From positions 1,411,966 to 1,475,965 of the forward strand of contig CP060531.1 of the NCBI GenBank assembly GCA_016806715.1: 64,000 nucleotides of DNA, read 5' to 3'. Shown here one piece after another: positions 34,430 through 38,010 of the stretch. The notes below the pieces were generated by a model. That model was not told the origin of the DNA, made no database searches, and saw only the letters and a program-made list of their open reading frames with translations. This DNA is from Thermoplasmatales archaeon. GTDB taxonomy: Archaea > Thermoplasmatota > Thermoplasmata > Thermoplasmatales > Thermoplasmataceae. Every line of letters begins with the position of its first letter. Position 1 is the stretch's first letter. A program made the position numbers and the translations under genes.

Positions 34430-34948
34430 CTAACTTATCTGCACAGATCCAACATTTGGCGTGAATGTTACGTTAGACAAGCCATTGAAGTGTAGAGATG
34501 AGCTCAGGTTGAAATCAATCACTATGTCAGTCGTTCCGTGTGCTGATACATTGAAGGGGTGCGTAATTACAGCGAAATTGTTTCCTGACATTGTGGCCGT
34601 GATGCTCACCCCGAATAGGATAATAGTGACCTTTGTAATCTCAAGCCTGATCTGGGTATACTTCTGTGCCTTTAGCGACATGCTTGACAGAAGCACTGCA
34701 TTGGCTGCCGTTACATTCAGTATATCTATTGTCTTTGATCCAGTGCTGATGTTGGTCCATCCAGTCGTGTTGCCGTGAATCGCTATTTCGGAAAACGTTA
34801 TGTTTACCGCTGATACACCTGCGATTGACGTATCGGCAACAGACACGTTTGCCGTCCCGTTGCTTTCGTAACCAAGGTAATAGTAGCTGCCAACAAGGGC
34901 CGCGACTATTATGATCACTGCAGCAACAACTGCGTATCTGCTTTTCAT
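34430..34948 (-). CDS. DUF4382 membrane-anchored extracytoplasmic protein
   Basis: The 172-residue protein has an N-terminal hydrophobic anchor or signal (residues 6-26, YAVVAAVIIIVAALVGSYYYL) followed by a threonine/serine/asparagine-rich beta domain. NITFSEIAIHGNTTGWTNI, IDILNVTAANAVLLSS and KYTQIRLEIT match the DUF4382 pattern. Function is unknown; such domains occur in surface proteins. It is divergent from topoisomerase VI, and a perfect 25-bp palindrome lies between them. It is convergent with the PAC2 gene. Confidence 0.85.
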   Translation of the reverse strand: MKSRYAVVAAVIIIVAALVGSYYYLGYESNGTANVSVADTSIAGVSAVNITFSEIAIHGNTTGWTNISTGSKTIDILNVTAANAVLLSSMSLKAQKYTQIRLEITKVTIILFGVSITATMSGNNFAVITHPFNVSAHGTTDIVIDFNLSSSLHFNGLSNVTFTPNVGSVQIS

Positions 34949-34990
34949 ATACTATCGTCCATTGACCCTATGACGCAATAAATTAATTCT

Positions 34991-35015
34991 GGTACAATTT
35001 TTTAAAAATTGTACC
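34991..35015. promoter_or_regulatory. Perfect 25-bp palindrome in the topo VI/DUF4382 promoter region
   Basis: Arms GGTACAATTTTT (34991-35002) and AAAAATTGTACC (35004-35015) are perfectly complementary around a single central T. The AT core TTTTTTAAAAA can act as a TATA element in either direction: about 43 nt to the topo VI B ATG and about 55 nt to the DUF4382 ATG from the centre. This suggests a shared promoter with an overlapping dimeric operator. The binding protein is unknown. Confidence 0.7.
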
Positions 35016-35045
35016 TGAGCAGGAGGAATTTCTGGAAAACAATAT

Positions 35046-36935
35046 ATGCAAGTGAATTATTGGAACGTCATGGTCGCGGGGAAAACAACCACCTCTCATT
35101 ATAAGGAAATATCCATTGCTGAATTCTTCGAAAAGAACAGGCATATCCTTGGATTTGATTCCCCGCAGCGCTCCCTCTTCATGATCGTGAAGGAGGCTCT
35201 CGACAACTCCCTCGATGCCTGCGAGGAGGGTAAGATACTTCCTGAAATTTATGTGGAGGTTTCAAGGAAAACAGGTGACACCTTTTGCATAACAGTTAGA
35301 GATAACGGCCCGGGCATTGAGAGGCTTGAAATACCAAGAGTATTTGGGCAGCTCCTGTACGGATCGAGGTTCCACGCTGTCAGGCAGTCGCGTGGACAGC
35401 AGGGTATCGGCATCACGGCGGCAATACTCTATGGACAGATCACAACCGGAGAATCGGCCAAGATACGCACAAAAATAGCAGAATCGGATACCGGCTTCGA
35501 GATATTCCTGCAAATAAATGTTAAGGAGAACAGGGGTACGGTGGTTTCTGAAAAGCCAGTCATAATGGGGCAAGACCATGGGACGGAAATTTCAATAACC
35601 GCAAAGGGAAAGTACCAGACAGGAAAACAGTCCATAATAGAATACCTTAGAGAAACTGCGGTTGTTAACCCTAACATGAACCTGACATTTATGGATCCGG
35701 ACGGCCAGAAAACCGTATTCCGTAGAAGCACAGAAATGCTTCCTGTGCCAGCAAGGTCAATCAAGCCGCATCCTCTAGGGCTGGAACCGGGGGAGATTAT
35801 CGGCCTGGCTTCTGTATCGGGTGAAAAGAGTCTAAGGGCATTCCTGACGGGGGAGTTCAACAGGGTAAGCGATCATATCGCTGATGAAATTCTCAGGGTA
35901 TCTGGCATTGATGGTGATTTGTCCCCGAGGGAAATGAAGGCAGAGACAGCAATAAAACTCCGGCAGGTCTTCGGGACGGTAAAGCTGATGCCGCCACCTG
36001 TTGACTGCCTTTCCCCTCTGGGAGAGGAGTTTATAAGGCGCGGGCTTAAGACCATATACGAGGAACTGCATCCCGCATTCTATTCAAAGCCAGTGAAGAG
36101 ACCGGTGTCTGTATACAACGGCAACCCGTTCTCGGTTGAAGTCGGGATCGTATATGGCGGAGAAATCCGTGGTGATGACCAGATAAGGATAATCAGGTAT
36201 GCCAATAAGGTCCCTCTTCTCTATCAGGGTGGTGCCTGTGCTATTACCAGGGCGGTGTCGGAAATAGACTGGAGACCATACGGAATGGATCAGAAGCAGG
36301 GGATTGGAGTACCATTCGGTCCAATGATAATACTTGTCCATGTCTTTGGAACAAGGGTGCCGTATACGTCAGAATCGAAGGAGGCAGTTGCGGCAATTCC
36401 TGAAATTATTGAAGAAATTAAGCTAGCTCTCCGGTCCGTGGGACGCGGGTTACGCTCATTCATGAACAGAAATGACAGGAAAGAAAAGGCAAATGAAAAA
36501 TTTAACCTTGTAATGAATATCATTCCAGAGATAGGTAAAAAATGCGCCGCTATACTCGGCCGGAATGAGCCCAATATTGATCGTGTGATTTCGCTAGTCG
36601 CAAACGTTGTTTTCATCAACGAAGCAAGCTCCCGGACCGATGATGGGTTTGATGTTACGGTAAAAATATCCAACTTCACAACAGAAGATCGCACGTTTGA
36701 ACTTTATGCTGAGCCGGTTTTCGGGAAAATAGAAGGAAATGCGAAGTGGGTAATTCCTCCTATACTTTCAGCAAAAAGCTTTGAGTTAAAGTTTAAGTTG
36801 CTAGTAGGCCCGGAAAGATACCCTGGCGTGGACTATTATACCACAGGCATCAATCCTGTTCTTGTCCACGGAGCCGAACCACTGCCAGGTGACTGGTCGC
36901 TGCGTGAAGAGGAGGCGGAAGAAGATGTGCAGTGA
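35046..36935 (+). CDS. top6B: DNA topoisomerase VI subunit B
   Basis: The 629-residue GHKL ATPase subunit has the Bergerat fold motifs [16 protein letters not shown] (N box), [25 protein letters not shown] (G1) and [17 protein letters not shown] (G2). An H2TH and a transducer domain follow, and the C-terminal Ig-like extension is present (about residues 520-620). With subunit A it relaxes and decatenates DNA. ATG 35046 is the first start. A strong AGGAGGA lies at 35021-35027, unusually far (about 18 nt) upstream. The gene overlaps top6A by 11 nt. Confidence 0.95.
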
Positions 36936-38010
36936 AGTGAAGAAGACCCTGGAGTCCATGGTTGAAGCGATATACAACGCACTGGATGGGGGAGAGGTCC
37001 CGGAAATAAGGATGTCATCAAGGAACAGGGATAACATTGTTCTAGATCAGATATCTTCAGTATGGAAGTATGGTGAGTCTAAGGTATCGCGGAGCCTCAG
37101 GACCATTGATGGTGCCAACTACGTTCTAAAGAACATTTACATGATTGATTTCATTCTCGAGATGCTGAGGGATGGTAAATCTTCCACTCTCAGGGAAATG
37201 TACTATATATCCGAAGGCTGGGGGAAGGGAAAATTCGGTACCCAGGACGAATCAGACCTTATGGCTGAGGATCTAGAGGTAATCACATCACTGATAAGGG
37301 AGGACTTCAGGTTACGCCCAGAAGAAAACGGGGCCAGCATCATTGGTGACATTACCATAGAGGAAAAGAGCAGGAAAGGAGACTTCAAGAAAATAAATTG
37401 CAAGGATGACGTAGGTGAAGCCGGATATACAATACCAAATAACGTGGAGAGCGAAAAACTCAGGCTAAAAGCAACCAATGCAAAATTTGTTCTGGCACTG
37501 GAAACTGGTGGAATGTTTGACAGGCTCGTGGAAAATGGTTTTGATGAAAAATTCGGGTGCGTACTTGTGCATCTCAAGGGCCAACCTGCAAGGAGTACCA
37601 GAAGGGTCTTGAAAAGGATGAATACAGAAATGAACCTGCCCATTTATGTCTTTACCGATGGTGACCCCTGGTCCTTCAGGATTTTCGGGTCTATAGCCTA
37701 CGGGGCAATAAAAACTGCACACATTTCAGAGTATCTCGCAGTGCCCACCGCCGAATTTATTGGAGTTTCTGCTTCAGACATACTCAATTACGACCTTCCC
37801 ACCGACAAACTGACAGACAAGGACATAGCAGCACTCAACGCAGAACTCAAGGACCCAAGATTCCAGACCGATTTCTGGAAGGCCGAGATAGAGACCATGC
37901 TTCAAATAGGCAAGAAGGCTGAACAACAAGCTCTTGCAAAATACGGGTTGAATTATGTCACCGACAAATATTTGCCAGAAAAGCTTGGTGAAGTTGGAGG
38001 GATAAGATGA
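36925..38010 (+). CDS. top6A: DNA topoisomerase VI subunit A (Spo11 homologue)
   Basis: The 361-residue DNA-cleaving subunit has the catalytic tyrosine in [13 protein letters not shown] (Tyr93/94) and Toprim-fold metal-binding acidic residues in [23 protein letters not shown] 36925 sits in the 3' end of top6B after GAGGAGGCGG; an in-frame ATG upstream at 36862 is inside top6B and is rejected. Both subunits are full length, so a functional A2B2 enzyme is expected. Confidence 0.95.

Follow-up and report, generated by a model that had tools for sequence, protein, structure and literature searches.

A palindrome between DUF4382 and topoisomerase VI genes in a Thermoplasmatales archaeon as a probable doubled promoter box of the surface-protein gene

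We analysed a stretch of 64,000 nucleotides from the genome of a Thermoplasmatales archaeon (hereafter the window), in which the divergent genes for a DUF4382 surface protein and for DNA topoisomerase VI subunit B (top6B) are separated by a spacer that carries a long palindrome. The features of the locus, in window positions, are listed here.

34430..34948, minus strand: DUF4382 protein of 172 aa with an N-terminal hydrophobic segment (PF14321, E 3.3e-21)
34977..34983, minus strand: ATTTATT, TATA-like box of the DUF4382 gene, starting 7 bp after TTGTACC, a spacing also seen in orthologous promoters
34987..34997, minus strand: TTGTACCAGAA element of the DUF4382 promoter, fitting the NTGTACCANAA consensus, 49 nt before the DUF4382 ATG
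34991..35015, no strand: perfect 25-bp palindrome, of which the part conserved in congeners is GGTACAAT-N9-ATTGTACC
35009..35015, plus strand: second, inverted TTGTACC half-site, facing top6B, with no TATA box at the usual distance
35041..35047, plus strand: AATATAT (AATATAA in congeners), conserved TATA-like box of top6B, 23-29 nt before ATG 35070
35070..36935, plus strand: top6B, with a conserved start at 35070
36862..38010, plus strand: DNA topoisomerase VI subunit A, an open reading frame (ORF) overlapping top6B

The palindrome reads GGTACAATTTTT-T-AAAAATTGTACC, and inspection of the sequence bears out the first-pass annotation of the locus, which described two exactly complementary 12-base arms around one central base. 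It is the sole perfect palindrome in the 64 kb window with arms of at least 10 nt and a loop of 0-1 nt. Order-3 Markov simulations of the window (n = 30) give an expectation of about 0.03 per 64 kb for arms longer than 10 nt, in line with the earlier claim that such a repeat is beyond chance. With one mismatch allowed, the arms extend to 15 nt. A genome search, suggested at the same time, returned a single copy of the full palindrome in 1.96 Mb, and in relaxed searches no other site came closer to its arms than 2-3 mismatches. The true length of the spacer is 121 nt, not 97 nt as first given, since the conserved top6B start is ATG 35070. This codon is common to the congeners G001 and G002, which lack ATG 35046, the start of the longest top6B ORF. 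ATG 35046 itself falls inside the top6B TATA-like box. The true start of the subunit A gene probably lies downstream of the ORF start at 36862.

A search for related loci with the single DUF4382 protein as query found two congeners, G001 and G002, whose genomes are metagenome-assembled Thermoplasmata, besides a small number of more distant relatives. The DUF4382 proteins of the two congeners are 81-82% identical to that of the window, and the gene order is kept. Comparison of the spacers, another check proposed by the annotation, shows GGTACAAT-N9-ATTGTACC over the same 25-bp span in these two of three congeners, with 9-bp cores (CAGTTCATA and CCATTCATC) that are neither conserved nor palindromic. 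In the third congener, G003, DUF4382 is located elsewhere and its gene is preceded by TTGTACCACAA; the element was not found in the region upstream of G003 top6B. Conservation of the arms and their spacing while the core varies supports a putative regulatory-protein site with two-fold symmetry, as had been suggested. Because the congeners keep the arms around variable, non-palindromic cores, the perfection of the palindrome in the window species is largely incidental.

The AT-rich core had also been taken for the only TATA-like sequence of both genes. This assignment fails, as the core differs in the congeners and each gene has its own TATA-like box outside the palindrome; the positions of ATTTATT (34977-34983) and AATATAT (35041-35047) thus place both core promoters beyond its ends. 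On the minus strand the DUF4382 promoter reads TTGTACC-AGAATTA-ATTTATT. On the other side, the block GGAAAACAATATAWGCAAG lies upstream of ATG 35070 in the window genome, G001 and G002 alike, and AT-rich boxes at about 23-29 nt before top6B are a tendency in other family members too. Archaeal genes with no leader, or almost none, are expected to have their TATA box at such a distance from the start codon; a scan for sigma-70 promoters has no meaning in archaea. The transcription starts used in this promoter reading are deduced from the TATA positions.

The half-site that faces the DUF4382 gene is part of a wider pattern. The consensus NTGTACCANAA occurs upstream of three unrelated surface or secreted families, in 54 of 69 upstream regions. 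NTGTACC at -35 to -52 precedes 23 of 30 DUF4382 genes, nearly all of the 30 lying away from top6B, together with 14 of 17 genes for small TGLAxAK-type proteins and 17 of 22 secreted-family genes; the last two families were gathered by protein search, independently of the motif. Its position is mostly -41 to -45 from the start codon, just before the TATA box, with an A/T-rich stretch at offsets 15-19, and A occupies position 7 in 53 of the 54 elements and position 10 in all 54. For the 69 upstream regions of the three families together, mononucleotide shuffles predict about 0.22 copies of TTGTACC, against 46 observed. Seven DUF4382 upstream regions are without NTGTACC, and two of these have TTGTATC and one TTGAACC.

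Across 61 genomes, the pattern TTGTACCANAAN{1,6}TTAA, which joins TTGTACCANAA to a TATA-like TTAA, has 41 matches, whereas its reversed control has 11. Of the 41, about 36 stand in front of a start codon, mostly that of a signal-peptide protein and often one with a C-terminal membrane anchor, as judged by eye. The window genome has two exact sites in promoter position, before the DUF4382 gene and before the gene for a secreted protein at 1644867-1645832. Beyond the order, the remaining genomes sampled from the class show no enrichment (11 matches, 11 in the control), and six of those 11 matches fall in family f9. No Pfam family was assigned to the small or the secreted proteins of the putative regulon, and inspection by eye of the neighborhoods of some members gave no candidate regulator gene. 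TTGTACC-type boxes also precede genes at five loci (L213, L219, L220, L221 and L222) whose products, judged by eye, resemble a solute-binding protein, a repeat-rich secreted protein and an aminopeptidase, hinting at peptide scavenging. In f5 genomes, the regions upstream of secreted-protein genes (L090, L091, L094 and L095) hold TTCGAA-type repeats flanked by divergent TTGTACC/GTRCAAT half-sites, and these repeats are possibly the site of a second factor.

Most copies of TTGTACC are single half-sites, and an inverted partner is rare outside the genus of the window. Where a partner exists its offset differs, being 18 in the window, G001 and G002, 8-9 at L071, L074, L082 and L149, and about 25-26 in some f3 and f5 genomes; this variable spacing does not fit one rigid dimer. 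A sister box, GGAACA-N4-TGTTCCATAA (GGAACA-N4-TGTTCC), occupies the same place in front of four secreted-family paralogues that have no TTGTACC, and among 61 genomes just 4 have it, exactly at those paralogue loci. It resembles an operator of the same layout but of a second specificity. Palindromes of this sister type were seen just upstream of paralogous secreted-protein genes at L175, L188, L189, L191 and L204-L209; both orientations match in G033 and G013, and in G033 there is an ORF on the other side too.

The annotation had proposed that the palindrome controls topoisomerase VI, perhaps by sensing supercoiling. We found the element at 3 of 28 top6B upstream regions, all of them in the three genomes of this genus in which top6B has a common spacer with DUF4382. 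It is absent from top6B promoters outside the genus, and the half-site goes instead with DUF4382 orthologues in many genomes and with unrelated secreted-protein genes. An operator for a topoisomerase regulator or supercoiling sensor is accordingly not supported, as the element is not conserved with top6B across relatives; top6B may still be affected to some degree, but nothing observed points to it. As a separate observation, a top6B match is absent in the nearly complete same-family genomes G008, G012, G020, G021, G026, G028 and G036, so that part of the family has lost topoisomerase VI or replaced it.

We consider it probable that the palindrome belongs to the promoter of the DUF4382 surface-protein gene, as an upstream box that is doubled into an inverted pair and forms a putative activator site. 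The minus-strand arm TTGTACCAGAA would be the window genome's copy of the order-wide NTGTACCANAA, an element that would end where the BRE/TATA begins and, in these leaderless or nearly leaderless genes, lie at roughly -42 to -31. By analogy with the Ara-box and the A(N)TTTC box of Sulfolobales, a putative sequence-specific protein would bind TTGTACC and help to load TFB/TBP, so that the most likely outcome is activation. In the genus of the window, a second half-site, inverted and with its centre 19 bp from that of the first, would accommodate two protomers and give a near-palindrome, which the AT-rich core would complete in the window species only. Binding by a protein, activation over repression, occupancy by a dimer and the lack of a direct role for topoisomerase VI are all deductions.

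Several other readings were weighed against this one. A single dimeric regulator acting on the palindrome as a divergent operator, perhaps in opposite directions on DUF4382 and topoisomerase VI, would account for the conservation of both arms in two congeners, and in G001 and G002 the top6B-facing TTGTACC is followed by AGAA so that this arm matches the full TTGTACCAGAA consensus. In the window genome, however, its flank is TGAG rather than ANAA, the start codon is about 60 nt from the arm, no TATA box stands at the usual offset, and the element does not accompany top6B in G003 or in the rest of the family. We regard such joint control as unlikely. Similarly unlikely, in our judgement, is that TTGTACC-ANAA belongs to an extended core promoter read by a specialised TFB paralogue and not by a separate regulator. 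The element does abut the BRE, its distance from the TATA stretch is near-fixed, most copies are not palindromic and a BRE-like position always holds A, but the inverted repeats in several promoters (the window, GGTACAAATATGTACC at L074, L082 and GGAACA-N4-TGTTCC) suit a dimeric HTH protein better.

That the repeat acts as RNA, in a leader regulator or terminator hairpin, is very improbable even though the strand alone folds stably (-12.6 kcal/mol, z -4.7). Both genes have their deduced starts downstream of the palindrome, a single arm, which is all that most relatives have, cannot form a hairpin, and the stem is without a following T-tract and is not listed as a terminator in the window scan; an intrinsic terminator was rejected on these grounds. 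Most improbable of all is an AT-rich palindrome without function. Its core perfection is species-specific, and an AT-rich core has a chance of about 1% of pairing with itself, yet the arms are conserved in congeners and the half-site recurs at a near-fixed position in dozens of promoters, orthologous as well as unrelated.

Pieces of the TTGTACC system resemble known archaeal regulation. The Ara-box of Sulfolobales, with its activator XylR, lies upstream of the core promoter and is needed for promoter activity (PMC7264815), as is A(N)TTTC, which occupies -44 to -39 in Sulfolobus acidocaldarius promoters (PMC5817253); a role in recruiting TFB has been proposed for these upstream boxes (PMC5817253, PMC7264815). 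The Ara-box, short like the TTGTACC element, is found at the promoters of a regulon with a secreted binding protein among its members and is required for activation (PMC7264815); a regulon and an activating role of this kind would be predicted for TTGTACC. The Ara-box itself can be dismissed, as the sequence found is TTGTACCANAA and not AACATGTT, and it belongs to another phylum (PMC7264815); no sugar genes were seen with the TTGTACC element, and the Ara-box is a self-contained palindrome whereas TTGTACC mostly stands as single half-sites (PMC7264815). The A(N)TTTC UV-box is comparable in being non-palindromic, placed just upstream of BRE/TATA and present in promoters of genes for Ups pili, a surface structure, and of other genes, but it has another sequence, is linked to the UV response and possibly to TFB3, and forms no inverted pair (PMC5817253). 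Divergent operators of bacterial-type dimeric HTH regulators likewise have inverted half-sites between divergent genes; in the window, however, the box stands where a promoter box is usual for only one gene of the pair, and neither flanking gene encodes the regulator. The element itself stands, as promoter-proximal activator boxes do, immediately upstream of BRE/TATA at a near-fixed distance.

We found no literature that links TTGTACC with Thermoplasma and no description of the putative regulon or regulator in the library searched; for DUF4382 with archaea there was one passing mention, as a glycosylated protein. The sequence, position and conservation of the element and its common gene set in three unrelated surface and secreted families point to a shared putative regulator of cell-surface genes, rather than to topoisomerase control. 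A bolder proposal, plausible but somewhat short of probable, is an order-wide surface- and secreted-protein regulon in these Thermoplasmata that would act through TTGTACCANAA and one undescribed regulator or dedicated TFB, with GGAACA-N4-TGTTCC marking a duplicated regulator of switched specificity. Little on transcription control in this archaeal group was found in the library searched. The box would place DUF4382, the small TGLAxAK protein and the secreted family, all uncharacterised, in one programme, and as a conserved mark on a defined set of surface genes it offers a direct way to the regulator and to the condition to which that regulator responds.
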